Positions 23,191 to 43,197 of a DNA stretch of 46,686 nt are shown here, in pieces (within the stretch, counting starts at the first letter, position 1; every line of letters begins with the position of its first letter). The translations under genes were made by a program, and so were the position numbers. This stretch comes from Acidilobaceae archaeon (GTDB lineage: Archaea > Thermoproteota > Thermoprotei_A > Sulfolobales > Acidilobaceae), in NCBI GenBank assembly GCA_027082825.1, contig JALWTO010000052.1, positions 65,459 through 112,144 of the forward strand, written 5' to 3'. A model generated the notes under the pieces. That model worked only from the letters and a program-made list of their open reading frames with translations. It was not told the origin of the DNA and ran no database searches.

Positions 23191-23237
23191 CCACCTCGCC
23201 CATAACCCTACCAAAAGGGTTATGGGCTCATGGGTGG
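23191..23237. repeat. Long hairpin at the 5' edge of the TnpB remnant
   Basis: GCCCATAACCC (23198-23208) is the exact reverse complement of GGGTTATGGGC (23217-23227), with loop TACCAAAA. Outside it, CCACC (23191-23195) pairs with GGTGG (23233-23237) across small bulges. Stable hairpins like this are used by IS200/IS605-family elements near their ends, but here it overlaps the start of the surviving tnpB frame. Confidence 0.65.
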
Positions 23238-23814
23238 CTGTCGAGGCCAATGGAACGGGCCTCACATAGAGAGAATAAGGAACATAACAGAAGACTTTAC
23301 TAAAAGAGAGGCGAAAAGAATAGTAGACTTTGCTATTGCTCATAACGTGAATACTATTATAGTTGAAGACCTCAGAAACCTGAGTACAAATTCAAGGAGG
23401 CTTAAGAAGAGCTGGAGAGAGCGATTGATATACATGGTTTATAGAAAACTATTGTGGTGGATAGAATGGGAAGCAAGAAAACACAGTTTAGCGGTTGTTA
23501 GGATAGATCCAAGATATACTTCAACAACATGCCCGTATTGTCATGTAAAAATGATAAAAACAGGGTACAGGAGATATAGATGTCCGAGATGTGGTTTTGA
23601 AGCTGATAGAGATACCATAGCTGTCCTAAACCTAATTAATAGATACAAATCCCAGATGGGGACTTCTCTGACCAGCCCGACTGCCCTGCAGATGAAAGAT
23701 GTATCCCCGAATAGATGCGGGGAACCGATGAACCCTTTAGGGCGGGGAGGAGGTCAGATATACGAGCAGTACAGGGATGAAAAGAAGGTAGTGACCAGAT
23801 ACTTGACCACTTGA
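23230..23814 (+). pseudogene. tnpB: C-terminal fragment of IS200/IS605-family TnpB (OrfB)
   Basis: The 194-residue open frame matches only the C-terminal half of TnpB, an RNA-guided RuvC nuclease. It shows the helix RNITEDFTKREAKRIVDFA, the RuvC-II glutamate in TIIVEDLRN (E46), a CPYC...CPRC zinc ribbon and the RuvC-III aspartate in FEADRDTIAVLNL, ending with the usual TALQMKDVSPNR...GEPMNPLG tail. Full TnpB has about 370-420 residues; the N-terminal RNA-binding part and the RuvC-I Asp are absent upstream, where a hairpin and stops are found. No TnpA is present, so the element is dead. It ends 44 bases from tRNA-Ala. Confidence 0.85.
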
Positions 23815-30381: not shown

Positions 30382-31422
30382 TTATCTTAGGATTTTATTC
30401 AGTTCGTTCTTCTGTCTTGCAAGAATCACTTCTCTGGCTATTCTCCTTCCCATACTCATGGGTTCGTCCCAATAAAGCCAAGAATAAGGGCTTCCATTAA
30501 CATATATATTAGTTCCAGCCACTATTCTTCCTGAGAACTCAAAGACCACTATAGAAAGGTTCTCCTTAACTATACTTTCCAAACAGAAAGGACCAGCTAT
30601 ACCTCCATTCTCAACAGTTAGTGTCGCATTGACAAACCTATTACCGTATTCCATGACCTTTGGAAGGAGGCTTTCCCTAAGAACGAGAGGTATATTTCCA
30701 ACAACAGTGAATGTTGGCTCTATATACTCTCTTGGGACTCTTCCTAGAGAATCAGCATTTGATTCATATCTTATGTCCATGCCTAAGATTTCAAGCCTTC
30801 TCAAAACTGGACTATAGAAATAATGATAGTATGCCCTAACTCCTAATAAATATTCCTGTATAATAACATCTTTGACATTATTATTGAGTTTCTTCATAAC
30901 CTCTTCTTTTCCTTTTGCTATGAAATAACCTCTCCCTCCTTTTGCACCTGGCAACTTAACTATTACTAAATCATCGAAGTTTTCATCTAGAGAATACTCC
31001 CTAGGTACTGGAATGCCTGCAGATCTTAGAAGATTCATCTTCTTTTTAGGATCAGCCTCAACCTCCATAATCTTCCTAGATCCAAAGAGAGGAAGTTCTA
31101 AATTTAAAAAACATTCTGAGCCGATATATTCAACCATGCTACCATGAGGAACCAGTATCGTATTAAGTTCCTGTAACTTTCTTACAACATCATCCTTACA
31201 TAAATCCTTCCATCTATCTACAACTAACGTTTTATCTATTAGATGCGGAAAGTTATTGTAAAAGACTTCTCTTTCAGGTATGCTGATTAAAATAGTCTTT
31301 AATCCTTCTTTTTTAGCACCATAAAGTATCTGTAATGCAGAATGACTGGCCAAAACTCCTATATGTATGTCTTCTGTATCATAATTGGAAATTATCTCTC
31401 TAATATCGGTATTAGATATCAT
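30382..31422 (-). CDS. purP: 5-formaminoimidazole-4-carboxamide ribonucleotide synthetase PurP
   Basis: A 346-residue ATP-grasp enzyme that uses ATP and formate to formylate AICAR to FAICAR. It carries the canonical archaeal PurP blocks: [35 protein letters not shown] (the ATP loop), [39 protein letters not shown] and [10 protein letters not shown]. It is the last gene of the purine operon and overlaps purE by 11 bases (ATG within the purE 3' end). Of the two PurP homologues here this one keeps the family's conserved loop, so it is the likely genuine FAICAR synthetase. Confidence 0.93.
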
Positions 31423-31840
31423 TCTCGGAACACCTTCTGGCGAGTCTAAGGATTCTTAGAGCTAAATATGCCGCGTTCTCAGCTATACCTATACCAACAG
31501 TTGCAACAGGAACTCCCCTAGGCATCTGAACTATTGAAAGAAGTGCATCAAGGCCCGAAAGAGGTCCTACAGCAAGTGGCACACCTATTACTGGTCTATT
31601 AGTCCTAGAGGCTATGAAGCCTGGAAGGGCTGCAGAAAGTCCTGCCATTGCTATATAGATATCTATTTCGTTATCATTCTCTTTGATGTATTTTTCAAGT
31701 TCATCAGGATTTCTATGAGCGCTTAAGATTTTTACATCAACGTTTACTCCATGGCCATTAAGTATATTTATTGCTTTTTTTGCTATATCAATATCTTTAT
31801 TGCTACCAACTATTATTGCAACTTTAGCCTTACACTTCAT
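31412..31840 (-). CDS. purE: AIR carboxylase / N5-CAIR mutase PurE
   Basis: About 142 residues. [17 protein letters not shown] (nucleotide phosphate loop), [11 protein letters not shown] (the catalytic His motif), then [16 protein letters not shown] and [20 protein letters not shown]. It forms carboxyaminoimidazole ribonucleotide. The start is ATG at 31840, overlapping the upstream stop as ATGA; the longer frame to 31861 is less likely. No PurK is present in this cluster, so the enzyme may carboxylate AIR directly with CO2 or use a PurK encoded elsewhere. Confidence 0.93.
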
Positions 31841-32946
31841 GTTATCACTCTCTCGATACAATCCTTCTCAATACACTCTCTAATCTCTATGGCTATTCTC
31901 CTTCCCATACTTATCGGTATTCCAAAATAGAGTTTGCTGTATTGACTACCTAGTCCTAGGTAGATATTAGTTCCCCCTCCTATCCTTAATGCAACATCAA
32001 AAACAACAATATCCAAATCTGGAGTTACCATGAGCTGCAAAGTAAAGGGACCTATGAGACCCGGAGGCTCTATATTATCTACAGCATTAACAAATCTATC
32101 CCCTAGTTCGAATAGTCTATTTAGCATTCTCTCTCTTATCGTTACAGGTTCATGACCTATCTCTACATATTCCACATCAATTACTTCCCCTATTTTTAGC
32201 TGATCTGAGGCTGGAAGCCTCAGAAAACCATCAAGGTTCGTCTGAATTCTCCTATCTATGCTTAAGAGCTCTACGTCATTTCTGGCCATGGTTCTGAAAT
32301 AATTAACATTAAAATGAGCACCTACTATTAGCTCCTCTATCGAAGCATTCTTTAAGTCTTCCTCTTTTATTACACCATCAGAAACTAGTTTCCTAAATCT
32401 CTTCCAGAAATCATCTCTGTCTCTTGCAACAAAAAACCCTCTTTCAACTCTTCTCTTGGCGTGAGGCATTTTAACCATTACAGGCCTATCTATCTCATCT
32501 GGACTCGAGAAAGTTTTAGGCCTCCTTATTCCTGCAGTATCTAACAGTCTATAGTAAGTCTTATTTCCTGTTCTTTCCTCATAGCGAAGAAGATATCTAT
32601 TTCCATATATAGGAACTGGAAAGTTAGTTTCAATAGCATCATATCCAACATATACAGCAAAACTTCTATTAGGAATCATAATTGCATTCCTTTCTCTAAT
32701 CTTTTTCACAACCTCAGGATCTATCACCTCTGAAAACTTGTTTAATATGATGGTTTCATCAACAACTCTCTTAAACCTCAAATAAGCTATTTCTCTTCCT
32801 TTTTGGCAGATTGCTAAAGTTCTGAAACCTTCGTCCTTGGCCCCATCGAATACATCAAGAGCTGAATGACTGGCTACCGCGGCTGTAGCCAAGGATCCTA
32901 AATTATACCCATCAAGAAGATGGCCAGAAGAATATCTAGAGCTCAA
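31837..32946 (-). CDS. PurP paralogue (PurP2), function uncertain
   Basis: About 369 residues, clearly homologous to PurP along its length ([63 protein letters not shown]). The ATP loop differs: PGAKGGRG of true PurP is [10 protein letters not shown] here, the tyrosine-rich active-site block is NVNYFRTM, and RYESN is RIQTN. It is thus a distinct subfamily seen in archaea with two PurP genes. It lies between purM and purE, coupled by overlaps on both sides. TTG at 32946 is preferred (GAGGGGAG five bases before). Possible roles are a second formylation or a missing purine step; none is shown. Confidence 0.85.
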
Positions 32947-33955
32947 ATTTTCTCCCCTCTTCAACCTCTATAATAACCCTTTTACTACCTTTTATGACAC
33001 TACCCACAACAAGGCCCTCAAAACCCTCTCTTTCAACAAAAGAGAGGAGATCATCCACATTATCCTTCGAAGCAGAGAATATAAGACCTATACCCATATT
33101 AAAAACTCTATACATTTCTTCCAAAGGAACATTCCCTAGCTTTCTAATAACCTCAAAACCCTTATCATATACTCCAAGCTTTAAATATACATCCCCATCG
33201 GAAGGCAGAATTCTTCTAACCTTAGAGAATGCACCGCCCGTTATGTGTGCTGCCGCCTTAATTAAGTTGTTTCTTATAGCCTTTAGAATAAGTTCAGAAT
33301 ATATGGCTGTAGGTCTTGTTAACCATTTACCTAAATCAAAGCCATCAACAATGGCATCGAATCTTCCTAGAGTGTTCTTTAAAATTTTTCTTATAAGACT
33401 ATATCCATTTGCATGTGGCCCATTACTTCTCACACCGACAAGCACATCTCCTATATCACTCATTCCTTTGAACGTATTACTCCTCTTTCTTGTGGCAAGC
33501 ACAGTACAGACAACATCTATTCCATTAACCAAATCAGGGAGTATAGCTGTCTCTCCTCCAACCAACAGCACCTTAGATTTCTCAGATGCTTTTTTTATAC
33601 CATCGATTATCTTAGAAAAGGTTTTTGTGTCAGCACTTGGCATTGAGATATAGTCATTTAACAACATAGGCTGTGAACCTGTACATGCAACATCATTAAC
33701 GTTCATGGCAACACAATCCCAACCAGCTATATCAAGCCTGTCTAACTTCTCTAAGATAACAGTTTTTGTACCAACACCATCAATATGCATAACTAAATCC
33801 ATGTCATGTATTCTGACGGAAGAACCATAACCTTCGAACTTAACCATAATGCCTAACTTTTTTGATAACTCATCCATAATTTTATGGGCAAGTGTATGCA
33901 TTTCTCTGTGCTTCTTTAGGTCAACACCTGCTTCTGAGTAAGTCCACTCTTTCAA
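32936..33955 (-). CDS. purM: Phosphoribosylformylglycinamidine cyclo-ligase (AIR synthetase)
   Basis: A 339-residue AIR synthetase. It shows the N-terminal YSEAGVDLKKHREM, VMHIDGVGTKTVIL, the GWDCVAMNVNDVACTGSQPM block, LVGGETAILPD, and the C-terminal ATP-binding half with ITGGAFSKVRRILP. It closes the imidazole ring, converting FGAM to AIR with ATP. TTG start with GAGGTG upstream, 4 bases after the purT stop. The order T-M-P2-E-P1 follows the pathway. Confidence 0.95.
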   Translation of the reverse strand: MKEWTYSEAGVDLKKHREMHTLAHKIMDELSKKLGIMVKFEGYGSSVRIHDMDLVMHIDGVGTKTVILEKLDRLDIAGWDCVAMNVNDVACTGSQPMLLNDYISMPSADTKTFSKIIDGIKKASEKSKVLLVGGETAILPDLVNGIDVVCTVLATRKRSNTFKGMSDIGDVLVGVRSNGPHANGYSLIRKILKNTLGRFDAIVDGFDLGKWLTRPTAIYSELILKAIRNNLIKAAAHITGGAFSKVRRILPSDGDVYLKLGVYDKGFEVIRKLGNVPLEEMYRVFNMGIGLIFSASKDNVDDLLSFVEREGFEGLVVGSVIKGSKRVIIEVEEGRKFEL

Positions 33956-33959
33956 AGAA

Positions 33960-35195
33960 TCACCTCAGAGGTACTATCTTTAACATACTTGCAGCTAAGC
34001 TTACCTTATGTCTGGCCTTACTAGGAGTTTCTGCCCTTGCTAAAATTACAGCCATTCTTCTTCCAGGATATGTAGAAGGTTTACCAAACCATCTCACATT
34101 AACCCCTGGTATCTTTAATGTATCATAAACTCCCTCTAGATTTGGATACCAAGAGTTCTTAAGATCTGTATACACAGCATATGTTGCTGCAGGAGTAACT
34201 ACCTTAACCTCAGGGATTGGCAAACCTATTGTAGCTCTTACATGTATTGCAAACTCGCTCAGATCCTGGCTGAGCAAAGTAACCATTCCTGTATCGTGAG
34301 GCCTTGGGGCCACTTCACTGAAAAGAAGCCTTCCATCTTTCGTCAAAAGAAGTTCTATGGCATAAATTCCTAAACCACCTAGTCCCTCAGCGACCTTTAA
34401 GCCTAACTCTTTACATCTTTTTAGAAGTCCTGCATCTCTCTCTGAAGGTTGCCATGACTCTATATAATGGAATTCACCATGTCTCCAGTGCTCAATAGGC
34501 TCTATCACATTAGTCTTGATACCCTCTTCAGAGACCCACCTATATGCAAGTACTGTGAATTCTGTCTCCAGGCCCACAAACTCTTCAACTATAATTCTTC
34601 TACTATCTCCTCTAGCATGCTTTATTGATTCTCTATATGCCTCTATTATCTCATTTTTCGGCTTAGACTCCATGATCCTCACATGACCGTGTCCACTACT
34701 ACTCATTTCTGGCTTCATTAAGCATGGATATCCAACTCTTTCACATGCTTCATAGGCTTCCTCTTCATTTGAAGCAAACTTGTATTTAGTTGTTGGTAGG
34801 CCCAACCTTTCAGCGGCAAACTTCCTCAATTCTATTCTGTTCATAGTTATAGCTACTGCATCTGCATTAGGTATTATATTATACCCTTCTTCCTCAAGGT
34901 CTTTTAATGCATCAGTATTAATCGCCTCAATCTCAGGTATAATAGCTATAGGGTCTTCTCTGTGAACTATTTTAATTAATGCATCATAATCAAGCATATT
35001 AATGACATAATACCTATGTGCGACCTGCATTGCAGGTGCCATATGATATCTATCAACAACTATTGTTTCTAAACCCAATCTCTGTGCTTCTATAATAACT
35101 TCCTTGCCGAGTTCGCCACCTCCAAGAAGAAGTATCTTTGCTGATCTAGGACCTAATGGACTCGGAAGAACCCCAAGCCTCCTACCCTTTACCAC
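33960..35195 (-). CDS. purT: Formate-dependent GAR transformylase PurT
   Basis: A 411-residue ATP-grasp enzyme that forms formylglycinamide ribonucleotide from GAR, formate and ATP. ILLLGGGELGKEVIIEAQRL, VDRYHMAPAMQVAHRYYVIN, PEIEAINTDAL, MKPEMSSSGHGHV and EVAPRPHDTGMVTL are the classic PurT blocks. GTG start with GAGGAGG 10 bases upstream. Its presence instead of the folate-dependent PurN, together with PurP instead of PurH transformylase, shows that this pathway takes both one-carbon units from formate. Confidence 0.95.
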   Translation of the reverse strand: MVKGRRLGVLPSPLGPRSAKILLLGGGELGKEVIIEAQRLGLETIVVDRYHMAPAMQVAHRYYVINMLDYDALIKIVHREDPIAIIPEIEAINTDALKDLEEEGYNIIPNADAVAITMNRIELRKFAAERLGLPTTKYKFASNEEEAYEACERVGYPCLMKPEMSSSGHGHVRIMESKPKNEIIEAYRESIKHARGDSRRIIVEEFVGLETEFTVLAYRWVSEEGIKTNVIEPIEHWRHGEFHYIESWQPSERDAGLLKRCKELGLKVAEGLGGLGIYAIELLLTKDGRLLFSEVAPRPHDTGMVTLLSQDLSEFAIHVRATIGLPIPEVKVVTPAATYAVYTDLKNSWYPNLEGVYDTLKIPGVNVRWFGKPSTYPGRRMAVILARAETPSKARHKVSLAASMLKIVPLR

Positions 35196-35210
35196 AGGAA
35201 ACCAACCTCC

Positions 35211-36719
35211 TCAAGATGATAAACTTTTGGATGAAGAATAATCAAAAAACACGAGACCTTTCCCAGGTATCCAATCATAAACCATAAGCAATCCTTTAGC
35301 CCTTCTTCTAGTATATGCAAGCCTTGCAAGCCTTGCTTTCCTCAGTCTTATTTTTATATGACTGTGAGCTCCTATATCCCATCTATGAATTAGCCTATAA
35401 CCGTCGTAAGTAGATACATAATTTATCGCCTTCTCAGCAAGAGCAGATGCATCCTCGAAACCTTTTTCACTAGAGCAAACAATCTCAAGTGCCCTTGAAC
35501 CTGTTGTCAGAAGCTCTCCATCTACTAGATTAACTCCTCCATAAAGTATTTCACAACCTAACTTTCTGATCTCTCCTTCGTTTACTGAGATAGGATGTCC
35601 TTTAGCCTTTTCTCTTTCAAGTGGATAGCCTTCAGGAGCTATAGCTTTGTTGACAACGTAAATATTATCATTTATCTCTAGCTTGTACGACGAAAGTTTT
35701 CCTCTAGCAGCACTATCAAGCAGTTCTAAGAAGTCACTTTTTATCATGAACAAAAGGTTTCCTATTTCAGGATCCCCGAACCTTGCATAGTATTCTATAA
35801 GTGTAGGTCCCCAAAAGCTCGTTAGCATCATCTGACCACTTATAGCCCCTACATACTTTTCCTTTAATTCATTAAGAAGAGACTTTATAGTCATCTTAAC
35901 GATTTTTGTACTTTCTTTAAATTCCTCCTCTGTTATGAATGGAAGTACGAAAGAAGGACCACTTATTGAACCCATACCTCCTGTTTCAGGACCTAAATCC
36001 CATGGATAAAGATGAGGATGATCTTCAACTACAGGTAAGGATATGAGAGTATTCCCATCTGTAACGGTCATTAATGTGTATTCTACCCCTTCTACCCTCT
36101 CCTCAACAATAATAGAACTCTCTATATCTTTATATTTTCTCATTATCATCTCGGCTAATCTCTTTGTGTAAGTTGCTGCTGCCTCTCTGGCTATTCTTGA
36201 AAGATGCTCAGCTGTCTCACCAAAGACCCTAACTCCTCTTCCCCCAGCCTGTCTTGCAGGCTTTACCACAGAATCGCCTGAAGCCTTTGCGTATTCAGCA
36301 GCCTCTTCAGGATCTGTAAAGGTTTTATATCTAAGTCTTCCAGGTATCTTGTATTTCCACATAAGGTTCCTTGCAAATCCTTTATCTTTTTCAATAAGCG
36401 AGGTTCTAGAACTTGGACCAAACACAACAAAACCATCATTCCTCAGAACATCAGTAACCCTGCTAAAGAGAGGTTCCTCGGGCCCTATGATAATGAGATC
36501 AGGAGATATCTCTTTGGCTGCCTTTAATACATCTTCAGGATTTGTGGGTTTTCCTCTTAAGTATTTTCCTCCAGAGCTTTTGCAGAGCCTTAAAATACCA
36601 GGATTTATATTTGAAGAAACTACAAAAATTCTAGGCTCAAGCCTACTTTTTGAGACTAGAAGTGTCAATGCATGCTCTCTAGCCCCACCACCAACTATTA
36701 ATACCCTAAATTTACTCAA
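35211..36719 (-). CDS. purD: Phosphoribosylamine-glycine ligase (GAR synthetase)
   Basis: About 502 residues; the ATP-grasp plan is intact. VLIVGGGAREHAL at the N-terminus, IIIGPEEPLFSRV, VVKPARQAGGRGVRV (ATP loop), VEERVEGVEYTLM, GPETGGMGSISGPSFV and IEYYARFGDPE. It joins phosphoribosylamine to glycine. The C-terminal tail (RRAKGLLMVYDWIPGKGLVF) is longer than in bacterial PurD. TTG at 36719 overlaps the preceding stop as TTGA and has GGAGGTG at 9 bases; an in-frame ATG at 36740 lies inside the upstream gene. Confidence 0.95.
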   Translation of the reverse strand: MSKFRVLIVGGGAREHALTLLVSKSRLEPRIFVVSSNINPGILRLCKSSGGKYLRGKPTNPEDVLKAAKEISPDLIIIGPEEPLFSRVTDVLRNDGFVVFGPSSRTSLIEKDKGFARNLMWKYKIPGRLRYKTFTDPEEAAEYAKASGDSVVKPARQAGGRGVRVFGETAEHLSRIAREAAATYTKRLAEMIMRKYKDIESSIIVEERVEGVEYTLMTVTDGNTLISLPVVEDHPHLYPWDLGPETGGMGSISGPSFVLPFITEEEFKESTKIVKMTIKSLLNELKEKYVGAISGQMMLTSFWGPTLIEYYARFGDPEIGNLLFMIKSDFLELLDSAARGKLSSYKLEINDNIYVVNKAIAPEGYPLEREKAKGHPISVNEGEIRKLGCEILYGGVNLVDGELLTTGSRALEIVCSSEKGFEDASALAEKAINYVSTYDGYRLIHRWDIGAHSHIKIRLRKARLARLAYTRRRAKGLLMVYDWIPGKGLVFFDYSSSKSLSS

Positions 36720-37939
36720 GAACTCATACACCTCCTGCATGGATCTATTCCAAAAGACCTCAAATACTCTAAGGCATCATCCAAAGAAAGCCATATCAAA
36801 TCATCTACATCAAGGGCTCTTTTTATCTTCTCATCATCAAGGACCCTAGCTATGAGAGTGTTTGGATCTATATTATTGACTCCATAAGGACAGGCATTTA
36901 TTATCTTAGGACTAGATACTATTACATGTACCTCTTTAACAGCTTGAGTCCTTCTAAGTTTATGAACTACGGTCTTCAATGTCAAGCCTGTAACCACACT
37001 ATCATCGACTATTGCTATAGACTTACCCTCGAAGACGTTTGGAACAGGATTTAACTTGAGACTTAGAGCCATGAGGCGTTCTTCTTGAGAAAGTGGGGCT
37101 ATAGCTGTTCTCATTCTTCCTACAGTAGAAACAAAGGCTAACTCAAGAGGAACATTTCTTTCCTCAGCATATCCTAAAGCATATGGCAAGGCAGTTTCTG
37201 GAACACCAACTACCACATCAATATGAGTACTATTATGTCTCCTTGCTACTTTTGCCCCCATGGTCTTTCTAAAAAGGTAGACATTAATTCCATCAACATA
37301 ACTATCAGGCCTAGCAAGATATATATATTCAAAAAGTGATGTGGTTCTTTTTCCTCCTTCGAGAACATAACTTTCCAGAAAAGTTCTCGAACCATATACA
37401 ACTTCACCTGGCCTTAGATCATGCCTATACTCTCCTCCCATAAGAGTTATTGGAGCAGTCTCTGTAGCAAAATACACTGATTCAAACCCATATCCACCTA
37501 ATGAAAGAGGTCTAATACCATTTCTGCCTCTATAGGCTATAAACTCACCATCACTTGTAAGCCCAACAAATGCACATGAATCCATGCTTTCCTTGGAAAT
37601 AACTTCAGAAGATGCCTCATCTATTTTCTTAAATGAGGCCAAAATCTTGGCCACTCTTTCAGGATCACAAAGACCCTCAGAAACCACAGCTACTTTTTTA
37701 GTGTTTCCTGATGCTAGACCCAAGGAAGCCATAGGCTCAATACCAGCTATCACTGCATATCCTTTTGGCAACGACCATTTTTCAGACCAAGGGTTAATCC
37801 TACCAATTTCTATTCCGTTACCATTTAGAACAGCATAACTAGCTCTATAACCTCTATGCCTAAGTCCCATAATGCCATAATACGAATACTTTCCCGAGTC
37901 CTGATCTGTTTCAAAGAAGAAAGTTAAAAGAATACCCAC
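36716..37939 (-). CDS. PurF paralogue lacking the glutaminase cysteine
   Basis: About 407 residues, homologous to amidophosphoribosyltransferase over its whole length (RHRGYRASYA, FVGLTSDGEFIAYRGRNGIR, EYIYLARPDSYVDGINVY, VGVPETALPYALGYA, IAIVDDSVVTGLTLKTVV). With GTG at 37939 (GGAGGTG five bases before) it begins Met-Gly-Ile, so the catalytic Cys2 of PurF is missing. The glutaminase residues are also lost: RYSTSG aligns with EPMAS and FNGN with SEGL. The PRPP loop VDDSIVRGDT is changed to VDDSVVTGLT. It directly follows true purF (6-base gap), suggesting a partner or regulatory subunit, or an ammonia-using enzyme; this is untested inference. Confidence 0.85.
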   Translation of the reverse strand: MGILLTFFFETDQDSGKYSYYGIMGLRHRGYRASYAVLNGNGIEIGRINPWSEKWSLPKGYAVIAGIEPMASLGLASGNTKKVAVVSEGLCDPERVAKILASFKKIDEASSEVISKESMDSCAFVGLTSDGEFIAYRGRNGIRPLSLGGYGFESVYFATETAPITLMGGEYRHDLRPGEVVYGSRTFLESYVLEGGKRTTSLFEYIYLARPDSYVDGINVYLFRKTMGAKVARRHNSTHIDVVVGVPETALPYALGYAEERNVPLELAFVSTVGRMRTAIAPLSQEERLMALSLKLNPVPNVFEGKSIAIVDDSVVTGLTLKTVVHKLRRTQAVKEVHVIVSSPKIINACPYGVNNIDPNTLIARVLDDEKIKRALDVDDLIWLSLDDALEYLRSFGIDPCRRCMSS

Positions 37940-37944
37940 TGAAA

Positions 37945-39297
37945 TCACCTCCTACCTCTTGAAAAAAGAACCTCGAGCATATCAACTCTTATTTTAATCG
38001 GATAAAGAGAGGTAAAACATCCTAAACAGAGAGGCTTTCCTACAGAGTCCTTAATGTCTTTAACTGTGTTATAAATAAGAGTATCAGCGCCTATGTATCT
38101 TCTAATCTCCTCTATAGACTTTGAATATGCTATGAGTTCTTCTCTTGTTGGCATGTCTATACCAAAAAAGCAAGGCGAAACTATAGGCGGAGCTGCACTC
38201 CTGAGATGGACTTCCTTAGCTCCTGCATTTCTCAGCAATCTAACTAAATGCCTAGAAGTGTCACCTCTGACTATTGAGTCATCAACAAGTATGATTTTTC
38301 TGTCCCTGACACTTTCCTTCATAACCTGGAACTTCTTTAATAATACCTTTCTTCTTATTGTGGGGGCTGAAATGAATGCCCTCCCAGAAAATCTATTTCT
38401 ATAAATTACCTCATCTAGAGGTAAACCCCTTCTTATTGCATAGCCTATCGCAGCACTTCTCCCACTATCAGGAACTGGAGCAACTAAATCTGCTTCAACA
38501 TAATCTTTTTCAGCAAGCTTTGATCCCATTCTTTTTCTAGCCTCATGGGCATTTATTCCTTCGAAGAAGCTATCGGGCCTAAGAAAATATATGTATTCAA
38601 AGGCACAATAGGCTGGATCGAGAGTTTTTCCAAGAATTTCCTTAGAACAAGAGCCCAACTCTTGACAATAAATTAGATTATTTCTCTCTAGCTCTTTCCA
38701 TCCAAGACCTAAGGCTGAAAGACCGGCTGTCTCAGATGAGACAGCCAAATATTCATCTCCTAAGGAATAGGCAAGAGGTCTTATCCCCCTAGGATCTCTG
38801 GCAACCAAAATCTCTCCTCTTGAAGAAATAGCAACAAGACTATAAGAACCCTTAAGGATAGAAGAAATGTCTCTTATCGCATCGGCTAGATTGCCATGTT
38901 CCTCATATAATTCTTCTAAAATATCCACAAACGCCTTAGCATCCCAAACATAATTTTTCTTCCCCAAAAAAATAGTTGCTGCTTCTCTAAAGTTTATTAT
39001 ATTGCCATTGAAAGCTAATATTATCTTCTTGTTCCTTCCAACAACAGGCTGGTAAATCCCAGCATATGACCCACTTGTAGAATATCTCACGTGGCCAATA
39101 GCCAATCTAGCTTTATTATCAAGCTTTGAAGGATTTATTGCATTCCATACAAAACCTGAACCTCCTGCTATTTTTAACTTGCCGTTTCTAAGAAATGCTA
39201 TGCCCGCTGCATCATGGCCTCTATGTTGTATCTCTAAAAGAATTTCATATGTCATCTCAGAGGCGTTTTCACCAAACCAAGCAGAAATTCCACACAA
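37945..39297 (-). CDS. purF: Amidophosphoribosyltransferase PurF
   Basis: A 450-residue Ntn-type enzyme that commits PRPP to purines. The TTG start is followed directly by the nucleophile (MCGISAWFG, C2), with no propeptide. The glutaminase site is intact (R71YSTSG, FNGNI with N97 to N99). The transferase domain has VDDSIVRGDTSRHL as the PRPP loop, and a PLCLGCFTSLYP cysteine pair at the C-terminus together with PCFFGID could hold an iron-sulfur cluster as in some PurF enzymes. It lies 11 bases after purL, with GGTGG before the start. Confidence 0.95.
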   Translation of the reverse strand: MCGISAWFGENASEMTYEILLEIQHRGHDAAGIAFLRNGKLKIAGGSGFVWNAINPSKLDNKARLAIGHVRYSTSGSYAGIYQPVVGRNKKIILAFNGNIINFREAATIFLGKKNYVWDAKAFVDILEELYEEHGNLADAIRDISSILKGSYSLVAISSRGEILVARDPRGIRPLAYSLGDEYLAVSSETAGLSALGLGWKELERNNLIYCQELGSCSKEILGKTLDPAYCAFEYIYFLRPDSFFEGINAHEARKRMGSKLAEKDYVEADLVAPVPDSGRSAAIGYAIRRGLPLDEVIYRNRFSGRAFISAPTIRRKVLLKKFQVMKESVRDRKIILVDDSIVRGDTSRHLVRLLRNAGAKEVHLRSAAPPIVSPCFFGIDMPTREELIAYSKSIEEIRRYIGADTLIYNTVKDIKDSVGKPLCLGCFTSLYPIKIRVDMLEVLFSRGRR

Positions 39298-39308
39298 GAG
39301 TTTCCACC

Positions 39309-41471
39309 CTAAAGAGTTTTCTCCAAAGCTTCAAGGGACTCAGAAACTTTACTAAGGTCTAGTCTGATAACTTCTTTACCGTTATGTTGCACCCTAATGG
39401 TCTTCTCATTCCTAAGTGTATGCCCAATTACTGATGCCTTCAGCTTATAGCTCTGAGCCAGAGACAAGAACTCCTGAAGACTCTCAGGCTTTACTTCATA
39501 GAGAATCCTGGCCTGTGATTCAGAGAAAAGAGCCTCAAAAGGACTACACTCACAAATTGCCAAAGAGTTAAGAGTAATGCCAACATTTCCCCAATACGCC
39601 ATCTTAGAAACTGTAACTGCAATCCCTCCTATGGACACAGAGTGTGCTGCATATGCAAGTTCCTTCTCTGAGACCTTCTTTGCGAAACTTGCTAGTTTCT
39701 TTTCTGTATCGGCCCTAAATACTGGAGGTCTTCCATATACGTCCCCCAAGATTACTTCCTGAACCTCACTCCCTCCTAGCTCAGGTTCGGTCTTTCCAAT
39801 AAGAACAAGAGGTGAATCGCCTACAGGAACTACACCTAAAGCTTTGGTTATATTCTCTATCTTACCTATAACCATAATACTTGTAACAGGGTCTATCATA
39901 GAACCTTTCTCATCTTCATTATACAGGCTAACGTTACCCCCAATAATAGGTAGGTTGAGAATTTCAGATGCATAAGCTAACCCCTCAATCATCTTAACTG
40001 TATAATAATGTTGGTTAGGTTTTTCAGGGTTCCCAGAATTGATATTGTCAAGAGCAGCCAAAGGAGCTGCACCTACAGCAGACACCCTTCTATATGCATC
40101 ACCTAACGAAAGAGCTGCTCCAGTAAAGGGATCTAGCTTTACGTATCTAGGATTTCCTCTAACAGAGACTGCAAACCCTCTTTTGCTTCCATCTCTTAAC
40201 CAAATAACAGCTGAATCCCCATAACCAGGTGGCAGAACTGTCCTTCCTCCTACACCCCAGTCATATTGCTCATAAACTGCTTTTTTTAAAGAGACCCTTG
40301 GTGAAGAGAGAACACTAATCAAGGTCTTTTCTATATCTACGTCAGTAGGAAAAGGCACTTCAAAAGAAGATACTGGTGCTGAAACCTTTCTAGAAATTCT
40401 AGGTGGAGAGACCGCCAACTCTACAGGAATATCAACGACTGACCTGTTCTTAAAGAACATTTTAACCCTTTTCTCTGAACTGAAGTGACCGATAATACTG
40501 TACTCAATTTCATATTTGTCGAATATTTTGAAAAGCTCATTTAATCTATTGCTATCCTTAGGGATAACTATCATTCTTTCTTGACTCTCTGAAGCAAGAA
40601 TTTCAAATGGCTCTAAATCTGGTTCTCTGAGATGAACTTTATCAAGATAAACTGTTACCCCTACTTTGTTCTGTGCTGCTGTCTCAACAATTGCTGTACC
40701 AAGCCCTCCGCCTCCTAGGTCCTTTACGTGTGAAAGCAAGTTCTTATCAAAAGCATCAAGAAGTGCATCAATTATCAATTTTTCTATAAACGGATTACCA
40801 ACTTGTATCGCAGCTATATCCTTTTCGTCTAGAGGCTTACTAGCAAAACTACTTCCTAAGAAACCATCTCTACCAGTAGTATTCCCCAACAGAACTATTG
40901 GATCTCCAGGTTTAACTTTTCCTGAAAGAATTCTTTCTGGCTTAGTTAGACCAATGCATGCCACATTAACGAGTGGCTGTTTTTCATAAGACTTAGAAAA
41001 CCAAGTAAGGCCTGTGGCTGTTGGTATTCCCAGTCTGTTTCCATAGTCACCTATTCCCTTTACTATGTTTGTTGCAAGCCACTGCGAGTGCCTGGTCTTT
41101 AGACTACCCATATAGAGAGCATCAACTAGAAGAATAGGTTTGGCACCTAGACTTAGGACATCCCTAACTATTCCACCAACCCCAGTTGCTGCACCATTAT
41201 ATGGATCTACAGCTGAAGGATGATTATGACTTTCAATCCTTGCAACAAGTGCCACATCTTCAAAGAGCTTAATTGCTCCAGCATCCCTTCCAGGACCTAT
41301 TAAAACCCAGGGAGCTATTGTCTTAAGTTTTTTCAGATGTTCCTTTGTACTCTTATAGCTACAATGTTCGCTCCATTCAGCCTCAAGAAGTATAAGCTCT
41401 TCTTTGGTTAGTTTTCTTCCTAAAACTTTCTGAGCATATTCTATCTCAAAGCTAGTAAGTGGCACTACCAC
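39309..41471 (-). CDS. purL: FGAM synthase large subunit PurL
   Basis: A 720-residue small-type PurL, the ATP-dependent synthase subunit. The N-terminus has LEAEWSEHCSYKSTKEHL; RIESHNHPSAVDPYNGAATG, VKDLGGGGLGTAIVE and ASESQERMIVI are the first-half blocks, and a repeated half follows with GGNVSLYNED. With PurQ (glutaminase) and PurS it converts FGAR to FGAM. GTG start overlapping the purQ stop. Full length and intact. Confidence 0.96.
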   Translation of the reverse strand: MVVPLTSFEIEYAQKVLGRKLTKEELILLEAEWSEHCSYKSTKEHLKKLKTIAPWVLIGPGRDAGAIKLFEDVALVARIESHNHPSAVDPYNGAATGVGGIVRDVLSLGAKPILLVDALYMGSLKTRHSQWLATNIVKGIGDYGNRLGIPTATGLTWFSKSYEKQPLVNVACIGLTKPERILSGKVKPGDPIVLLGNTTGRDGFLGSSFASKPLDEKDIAAIQVGNPFIEKLIIDALLDAFDKNLLSHVKDLGGGGLGTAIVETAAQNKVGVTVYLDKVHLREPDLEPFEILASESQERMIVIPKDSNRLNELFKIFDKYEIEYSIIGHFSSEKRVKMFFKNRSVVDIPVELAVSPPRISRKVSAPVSSFEVPFPTDVDIEKTLISVLSSPRVSLKKAVYEQYDWGVGGRTVLPPGYGDSAVIWLRDGSKRGFAVSVRGNPRYVKLDPFTGAALSLGDAYRRVSAVGAAPLAALDNINSGNPEKPNQHYYTVKMIEGLAYASEILNLPIIGGNVSLYNEDEKGSMIDPVTSIMVIGKIENITKALGVVPVGDSPLVLIGKTEPELGGSEVQEVILGDVYGRPPVFRADTEKKLASFAKKVSEKELAYAAHSVSIGGIAVTVSKMAYWGNVGITLNSLAICECSPFEALFSESQARILYEVKPESLQEFLSLAQSYKLKASVIGHTLRNEKTIRVQHNGKEVIRLDLSKVSESLEALEKTL

Positions 41472-42139
41472 CCCCTCTTCAAGGAAACACCTAAACCTTC
41501 GAAGATCTTTCTTCCACCTGGTTCAAATCCTCTTGGTGACTGCCATGGGAAAGAAGCTCTTTCAGGGTGTGGCATTAATCCTAAAACAATACCATCTTTT
41601 TCTGCTACACCAGCTATTGATCTTATGCTTCCATTGGGATTTTCTATATATTCCATCCAAGGTTTCTTAATAACGTTTTCAGGGCTATCTGTAAAATAAC
41701 GGCCTTCTGCATGCGCTATAGGCATTGAAAGAACGGCTCCTTCTTCAATAAGAGAGAGCCAGGGTCCTTTAGGGTTATGAACTTTAACTCTAATCCACCT
41801 GGCTATAAATTTGGCACTTTCGTTATAGAGAAGATTTCCAGGAAGTATACCAATTTCTGTTAATATCTGAAAACCATTACATATACCTAAAATAGGTATA
41901 TCATTTTCGAAAGCTTTTTCAATCTCATTACTGGCCTTGCTCCATGATGCTATAAGACCTGCATGACCATAATCTCCATAACTGAAGCCCCCAGGCAATA
42001 TTATTGCATCCCATTCATCCATCTTAAATTCTGAGTGCCATACTATTCTTCCATCAAGCTTAGAGGCATTCCTTATGGCATAAAGTGTTTCCTCCTCACA
42101 ATTAGTACCAGGATACTTTATTATTGCAACTCTAGACAA
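41465..42139 (-). CDS. purQ: FGAM synthase glutaminase subunit PurQ
   Basis: A 224-residue class I glutamine amidotransferase. VAIIKYPGTNCEEE at the N-terminus, ILPGGFSYGDYGHAGLIA (oxyanion region), the nucleophile in ILGICNGFQIL, and the partner His/Glu in LMPHPERAS. It supplies ammonia to PurL. TTG start overlapping the purS stop by eight bases; it overlaps purL by seven bases at the other end. Confidence 0.95.
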   Translation of the reverse strand: MSRVAIIKYPGTNCEEETLYAIRNASKLDGRIVWHSEFKMDEWDAIILPGGFSYGDYGHAGLIASWSKASNEIEKAFENDIPILGICNGFQILTEIGILPGNLLYNESAKFIARWIRVKVHNPKGPWLSLIEEGAVLSMPIAHAEGRYFTDSPENVIKKPWMEYIENPNGSIRSIAGVAEKDGIVLGLMPHPERASFPWQSPRGFEPGGRKIFEGLGVSLKRGW

Positions 42140-42386
42140 TACTTATCACCATTATATCATGGACATTAGGATTATGGAGCTTTGTCTCGAAGGCTATTTT
42201 TTTGATTTTTTCTGAAGCCTCTTCTTTGTCTTTAGCCTCAATATCAAAAAAGAATGCTTTTCCAACCCTTACTTTGATAACTTCCTTATATCCTAGTGAT
42301 TTTAGTTCATGTGCTATGGTCTCACCTTCAGGGTCCCTAGCTGAGGCCTTATACGAGACAATCAAAAGTATTTTATAAATGGACAA
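42132..42386 (-). CDS. purS: FGAM synthase subunit PurS
   Basis: An 84-residue PurS: ILLIVSYKASARDPEGETIA, then VRVGKAFFFDIEAKDKEEAS. It forms the small dimer that assembles PurL and PurQ. TTG start after GGTGTGAG, 11 bases downstream of purC. Normal length for the family. Confidence 0.93.
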   Translation of the reverse strand: MSIYKILLIVSYKASARDPEGETIAHELKSLGYKEVIKVRVGKAFFFDIEAKDKEEASEKIKKIAFETKLHNPNVHDIMVISIV

Positions 42387-42397
42387 AGCTCACACCT

Positions 42398-43126
42398 TTA
42401 ACTACTACATATCCTAGTTGGATACCCTGCAATCTCTGCTAATCTTCTATAACCCTTGATAAGGAGATCTATATTCCTGGTTCTCCTGTAAACCTCTTTA
42501 TCTAGATGCTCACCCTTGTCTGTAAGCACTCTCATAGAATCCCCACTAAGATCATCAATCACCACTATATCATTGGTATTAGGATCCTTCCCTACTTCTA
42601 TTTTAAGATCAACAAGCCTTAGATTATGTTTATTCCAAAATTCTGAGAGAACTTCATTAACCCTGAGTGCAATCTCCTTAACTCTAATAAGCTCATCATA
42701 GTCAAGAAGCCCAGCCTCGTTAATGTCTTGGTCTAGAAGCAAAGGATCATGTAGCTCATCATTCTTGAAGTGGAACTCAACTATAGGCTTTATGAATTTC
42801 TTTAGAGGTTTAACCAAAGGCATCCTCTTTAAGAAACTACCATAAGCATAGTTTCTTACAATAATCTCCAAGGGTATAGCCTTATATTTCCTAACCTTAA
42901 GAAACCTGTCCTTTTTAAAACATATATAGTGTGTGTTCACACCAGCTTTCTCTAAAACTTCAAAAAGTGTTGCTGACAGCCTCGCACTAAGACTTCCCTT
43001 CTCTCTAACAATATCTTTATATTTTCCATCAAATGCTGTAACCTCATCTTTGAATTCCAACAGAAGCTCTTTATTTCCTAAATCGTATACCTTCTTTGAC
43101 TTACCCTCGTAAATAAGCATGGACAA
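42398..43126 (-). CDS. purC: SAICAR synthetase PurC
   Basis: About 242 residues. MLIYEGKSKKVYDL, LLEFKDEVTAFDGKYKDIV, then IPLEIIVRNYAYGSFLKRMP, FHFKNDELHDPLL and LVDLKIEVGKD are the SAICAR synthetase blocks. It joins CAIR and aspartate using ATP. TTG at 43126 is preferred (GGAGGT seven bases upstream), adding two residues to the ATG at 43120; a GTG at 43147 begins inside the ribosome-site region. It is the first gene of the twelve-gene purine operon, behind the TATA box at 43198-43206. Confidence 0.95.
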   Translation of the reverse strand: MSMLIYEGKSKKVYDLGNKELLLEFKDEVTAFDGKYKDIVREKGSLSARLSATLFEVLEKAGVNTHYICFKKDRFLKVRKYKAIPLEIIVRNYAYGSFLKRMPLVKPLKKFIKPIVEFHFKNDELHDPLLLDQDINEAGLLDYDELIRVKEIALRVNEVLSEFWNKHNLRLVDLKIEVGKDPNTNDIVVIDDLSGDSMRVLTDKGEHLDKEVYRRTRNIDLLIKGYRRLAEIAGYPTRICSS

Positions 43127-43197
43127 TTTGCCTACCTCCCAATTCACCCTCCAATGTACTCTTAGATAAGAAAGAGAAGTTAAAAAGATCTATTCTT

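Follow-up and report, generated by a model that had tools for sequence, protein, structure and literature searches.

The window analysed here, the whole 46,686-nucleotide stretch of contig JALWTO010000052.1 from an Acidilobaceae archaeon, carries a compact purine cluster in which purF, encoding the true glutamine phosphoribosylpyrophosphate (PRPP) amidotransferase, is directly followed by a paralogue, purF′, whose product keeps the phosphoribosyltransferase (PRTase) site and has lost the glutaminase site (Table 1). The initial annotation described a tandem of two full-length PurF homologues, and its coordinates, reading frame and content proved correct, as did its assignment of a catalytic Cys, RYSTSG and FNGN to the first homologue, in which VDDSIVRG is also seen.

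purF opens with TTG-TGC-GGT (M-C-G), and its stop codon is separated by 5 nt from the GTG start codon of purF′ (37937 to 37939; stop codon, 36716 to 36718). The motif GGAGGTGAT is a perfect Shine-Dalgarno sequence 4 nt 5′ of this GTG, and translation of purF′ and purD is likely to be coupled through the overlap of the two genes. Only four sense codons (E, V, I and S), none of them Cys, lie between the in-frame stop and the GTG, so no alternative start of purF′ yields MCG; an upstream start restoring the Cys, named in the initial annotation as a possible objection, is absent from the frame.

Table 1. Position and basis of features at the purF-purF′ locus of the window.
Feature	Position	Strand	Description or basis
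purF′ (PurF paralogue; PRTase site kept, glutaminase site lost)	36716-37939	-	407 aa, N-terminus Met-Gly
purF (true glutamine PRPP amidotransferase)	37945-39297	-	Cys1, RYST, FNGN, VDDSIVRG; TIGR01134 score
Shine-Dalgarno GGAGGTGAT of purF′	37944-37952	-	overlaps purF stop codon; read from sequence
PurF′ PRPP loop IAIVDDSVVTGL	36983-37018	-	from sequence and alignment
Overlap of purF′ 3′ end and purD start	36716-36740		25 nt
purD, operon gene after purF′	35211-36740	-	TIGR00877 above cut-off
Compact twelve-gene purine cluster purC-S-Q-L-F-F′-D-T-M-P-E-P	30382-43147	-	

No PurF′ or PurF match was found in 14 other surveyed genomes of the window's family, and no PurL-level match in nine genomes of that family, yet the window (genome G000, contig C52) encodes the complete purine cluster. 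The contig's ArgRS lies closest to that of the family (46-53%), whereas the closest matches of PurL and PurF′ are in family f3 (60-61%). The pathway would have been either kept or reacquired here, within a family that otherwise seems auxotrophic for purines.

In the window, purE has a PurP-like gene on either side (30382 to 31422 and 31837 to 32964). Among 69 genomes, two PurP genes are carried by most of those in which neither PurH nor PurO occurs, several of these having one distant PurP only, and six of the nine PurH-bearing genomes lack PurP; this distribution fits a speculation of 2011, by which one of the PurP proteins would be the missing IMP cyclohydrolase. In three genomes of family f61 (G332, G360 and G392), the match to PurH is divided between two neighbouring open frames, and in G360 and G392 its N-terminal piece is interrupted by a stop codon. 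Elsewhere in the window, an open reading frame at 23230 to 23814 (plus strand) resembles, by inspection only, a TnpB/OrfB-type transposon protein in its C-terminal portion, Cys motif included.

Fold and active sites of PurF′

In purine-making Crenarchaeota, PurF′ was described by Brown, Hoopes, White and Sarisky (Biol Direct 2011; PMC3261824) as a cluster without the N-terminal Cys, present once per genome next to purF and other pur genes; these authors guessed that it is an ammonia-dependent enzyme. By sequence, the window PurF′ belongs to this cluster: it has no Cys1, is separate from true PurF and shows no defining difference from the published group. The novelty implied by the initial annotation was therefore misplaced, as the protein, its position beside purF and the ammonia hypothesis were all in the 2011 paper. 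A search of the open literature found only that paper and no later work on PurF′, and a literature search for Sulfolobus islandicus essential-gene data linked to purine found nothing. Mlab_0150 of Methanocorpusculum labreanum is likewise a Cys-less PurF duplicate, recent and local according to the authors and with Ser for Cys (PMC3261824), but lies outside the PurF′ cluster. What is new relative to 2011 is a wider range, an intact PRTase site, the pairing with PurF, equal nonsynonymous divergence (dN) and Asgard members that keep Cys1.

The window PurF scores 355.5 bits against TIGR01134 (NCBIfam purF; cut-off, 350 bits) and PurF′ 166.8 bits, far under the cut-off. Against PF00156 (PRTase; gathering score, 26.3) the order is reversed, with 34.8 bits for PurF′ and 28.9 bits for true PurF, and PRTase is the sole Pfam model that the window PurF′ passes; in set A1, all 24 PurF′ match the Pfam PRTase model and at most 8 a glutaminase model (GATase_7). 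The window PurF′ matches PurF at 31% across the C-terminal 290 columns. An AlphaFold model of PurF′ (pLDDT, 91.6; pTM, 0.90) has the complete PurF fold, with TM scores by query length of 0.76 to 0.85 against PurF of Bacillus subtilis, Escherichia coli and Arabidopsis. PurF′ therefore resembles PurF (EC 2.4.2.14; structures 1ao0 and 1gph of B. subtilis, 1ecf and 6czf of E. coli, and 6lbp of A. thaliana) in its whole fold, its DDS..G.T loop, Tyr258, Arg332, Lys349 and, usually, the four B. subtilis-type Fe-S cysteines, but differs in the absence of Cys1, Arg73, Tyr74, Thr76 and Asn101, in Ala for Phe334 and in frequent Thr or Ser for Arg371.

Residues were counted in an alignment of 123 PurF and 120 PurF′ (E. 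coli numbering). The glutaminase site is almost uniform in PurF, with Cys1 in 121, Arg73, Tyr74, Thr76, Asn101 and Gly102 in 122 each, and Asp127 in all 123, whereas Cys1 persists in only 7 PurF′, Asn101 in 10 and Asp127 in 29; Arg73 is mostly replaced by Ser, Gly or Tyr and Tyr74 by Pro, Thr or Ser. The window PurF′ begins Met-Gly, as initially described, without the N-terminal Cys nucleophile required of PurF, and Cys1, RYST and the Asn of FNGN are all gone, with Glu at the positions of Arg73 and Asn101; the claim that FNGN is lost altogether was too broad, as its Gly persists (EGL). The Asp127 position is occupied by Asp in an alignment that is gapped and uncertain there. Four Fe-S cysteines are present in 114 to 120 of the 120 PurF′, and three in the window protein, where the fourth is Ser201.

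In E. coli PurF, one wall of the channel for ammonia consists of Tyr74 and Ile335 (PMC7953260). Since Tyr74 is replaced in PurF′, a channel of this type is probably absent; at the channel position Phe334, 91 of the PurF′ have Ala and 25 Met.

The PRTase site, by contrast, hardly varies. Arg261, Asp263, Arg332, Lys349, Asp366, Asp367 and Gly372 are each found in 120 of 120 PurF′ and Tyr258, Ser368 and Thr374 in 119, and several of these positions are more uniform than in PurF. The PRPP loop of the window PurF′ (IAIVDDSVVTGL) reads VDDSVVTGLT, with the two acidic residues of type I PRTases. Position 371 is Arg in 72 PurF′, Thr in 35, Ser in 10 and Lys in 2, and Thr is the residue in the window protein and in the majority of Sulfolobales. 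Type I PRTases usually carry DDxxxTGxT. The swap of Arg for Thr had been noticed initially and is present, but it is not the loss that it was taken for: judged from the loop, it brings back the motif common among PRTases and is no sign of degeneration. Because this motif is usual in PRTases and the window PurF′ outscores PurF on the PRTase model, PRPP binding is probably intact. The flexible loop of PurF′ has a conserved sequence of its own (TGRR.R[ST]A...QLKLNP), unlike that of PurF.

Range, pairing with PurF and selection

A total of 398 genomes of the window's phylum were searched, and the GTDB contig collection was scanned with a PurF′ alignment. PurF′ was found in records named Bathyarchaeota, Nezhaarchaeota, Brockarchaeota, Methanomethylicota, Wolframiiraptor, Culexmicrobium, Theionarchaea and Methanofastidiosia, in a few of Nitrososphaeria and, as an Asgard type, in Jord-, Njord-, Frey-, Sigyn- and Baldrarchaeota records. 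The distribution thus reaches well past Crenarchaeota. In a 91-row tree, made by a quick method and not to be trusted for deep order, all 38 PurF′ form one group (SH-aLRT, 100), and PurF with and without a PurF′ partner are interleaved. On these alignments and this grouping, PurF′ is an ancient PurF paralogue and the window protein a member of an archaeal PurF′ clade.

The initial annotation proposed asking whether a Cys-less clade always accompanies true PurF. A distinct clade does occur with PurF, but it is not uniformly Cys-less: seven Asgard-type PurF′ (L151, L152, L154, L156, L167, L172 and L185) still have Cys1, all in records named Jord-, Frey- or Sigynarchaeota. In four of the seven, viewed in detail, residues precede the Cys, Asn-Gly is kept, Arg73 is lost and the flexible loop is that of PurF′. 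These proteins are possible evolutionary intermediates. Since they already carry the PurF′ flexible loop, the PRTase domain would have specialised before the Cys was lost, and it is therefore the likely seat of the new function.

PurF and PurF′ stand in direct tandem, in that order, at 71 of 80 named loci and at 37 of 55 loci in a second set, which overlaps with the first in the genomes it covers. If PurF was not seen in the stretch around PurF′, the whole genome was searched, and PurF was present in each PurF′ genome checked except G228 (= G403), whose contig breaks off within PurF′; among the genomes checked, PurF′ without PurF was not found apart from this contig-end case. The converse does not hold, as PurF occurs without PurF′ in many families, e.g., f12 and f13. 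Genome G392 belongs to a PurF′-bearing family and encodes PurF, but neither an adjoining PurF′ nor any PurF′-level match was seen in it. In Vulcanisaeta sp. JCM 14467 (L153) and in G367, the matches to both purF and purF′ are broken over several frames or contain stops, through either a sequencing error or genuine loss.

PurF and PurF′ seem to move as a pair. G232 (L044) groups with Wolframiiraptor in both the PurF and PurF′ trees, and L159, a euryarchaeal MAG, with Sulfolobaceae in both, which a misbinned contig could explain. Pairwise identities of the two proteins are correlated (Mantel r, 0.71; none of 2,000 permutations as high), as shared descent alone would also give. The occurrence of PurF′ only together with PurF, and never in its place, favours a partnership.

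Between the window and L113, its closest relative (a MAG labelled Acidilobaceae, at 81-82% identity), dN is 0.120 for PurF′ and 0.121 for PurF, with synonymous sites saturated in both. Across 35 tandem pairs, mean identity in the PRTase part is 0.517 for PurF′ versus 0.476 for PurF, and in the glutaminase part 0.292 versus 0.367. As dN is the same in both, PurF′ is under purifying selection equal to that on PurF and is not decaying, which bears out the initial annotation, as does a deep clade with invariant residues of its own.

A putative partner subunit of PurF

We propose, with middling confidence, that PurF′ may be a PRPP-binding, glutaminase-dead partner subunit of PurF. An ancient paralogue with a specialised PRTase domain and a lost glutaminase would have been kept only beside a full PurF, as the second subunit, devoid of glutaminase activity, of a heteromeric PRPP amidotransferase. 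Its PRPP site would take up PRPP or, alternatively, purine nucleotides (compare the C site of PurF); this binding would set PurF activity, and PurF′ might make phosphoribosylamine (PRA) from ammonia as well. PurF′ would then act like HisZ with HisG or like PRPP-synthetase-associated proteins, and not as a second independent amidotransferase. PRPP-synthetase-associated proteins are non-catalytic enzyme relatives kept as regulatory partners. HisZ is described in PMC9734150 as a regulatory partner of ATP phosphoribosyltransferase. The likeness would lie in a non-catalytic relative serving as partner at the first PRPP-consuming or PRPP-making step, given a presumed association of PurF′ with PurF; HisZ differs in its origin, from HisRS rather than HisG.

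This reading is favoured because PurF′ depends on PurF, the trees place both jointly and the inactive N-terminal domain is retained. Its main weakness is that PurF appears to have no clear adaptation to a partner, the columns that separate partnered from solo PurF being few and weak. In addition, PurF in general does not need PurF′, a conserved PRTase site is equally expected of an active enzyme, the window PurF′ is short of one Fe-S cysteine, and co-occurrence, tandem order and correlated trees are also expected from shared descent in one operon. A division of labour, in which PurF loses its PRTase where PurF′ exists, was rejected, as the PRTase residues of PurF do not differ between partnered and solo proteins.

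The other leading reading, not mutually exclusive with a partner subunit and, like it, already proposed in the initial annotation, is that PurF′ might be a stand-alone ammonia-dependent PRA synthase (PRPP + NH3 → PRA) used when ammonium is plentiful, with PurF using glutamine. The near-invariant PRTase residues would fit such an enzyme, the altered channel positions (Tyr74 lost, Ala or Met for Phe334) would be compatible with ammonia entering directly, and E. coli PurF Cys1 mutants can still use ammonia (cited in PMC3261824). However, PurF′ is not found without PurF, and it retains the whole fold of a glutaminase-like domain that is inactive and that a free-ammonia enzyme could shed; we regard this role as rather unlikely.

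It is less probable still that PurF′ binds PRPP but performs another phosphoribosyl transfer or purine step, although its distinct, conserved flexible loop would be consistent with one. The missing crenarchaeal IMP cyclohydrolase is an example of such a step. The fold of PurO is Ntn-type, and it was this, with the absence of PurO and PurH from Crenarchaeota, that first brought PurF′ under suspicion as the missing enzyme. The candidate was rejected: PurH is also present in PurF′ genomes (G031, G332 and G360), many PurF′-less genomes, as in f12 and f13, lack both PurH and PurO, and paired PurP genes track the gap better.

Finally, the lost glutaminase motifs and the Ser at one Fe-S position would fit a recent decaying duplicate, or a wrongly called start hiding the Cys, but equal dN and deep conservation speak against decay and no Cys codon lies upstream of the GTG, which leaves this explanation with almost no credibility.

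Returning to PurF′ as a partner of PurF, we suggest, a little more tentatively than for the window itself, that in TACK, Asgard and some euryarchaeal archaea a two-gene PurF-PurF′ enzyme may run the committed step of purine synthesis. Its second subunit would be a PRPP- or nucleotide-sensing, or an ammonia-using, PRTase that specialised before the glutaminase Cys was lost, with the Asgard members as intermediates, and neither bacteria nor eukaryotes are known to have a heteromeric amidotransferase of this kind. With the residue pattern, the Asgard intermediates and the list of tandem pairs, the role of PurF′ becomes directly testable with two proteins. PurF catalyses the committed, feedback-controlled step of purine synthesis, and in many archaea a twin in the purine operon that is conserved, under selection and glutaminase-dead would mean a different make-up or a different control of this step.
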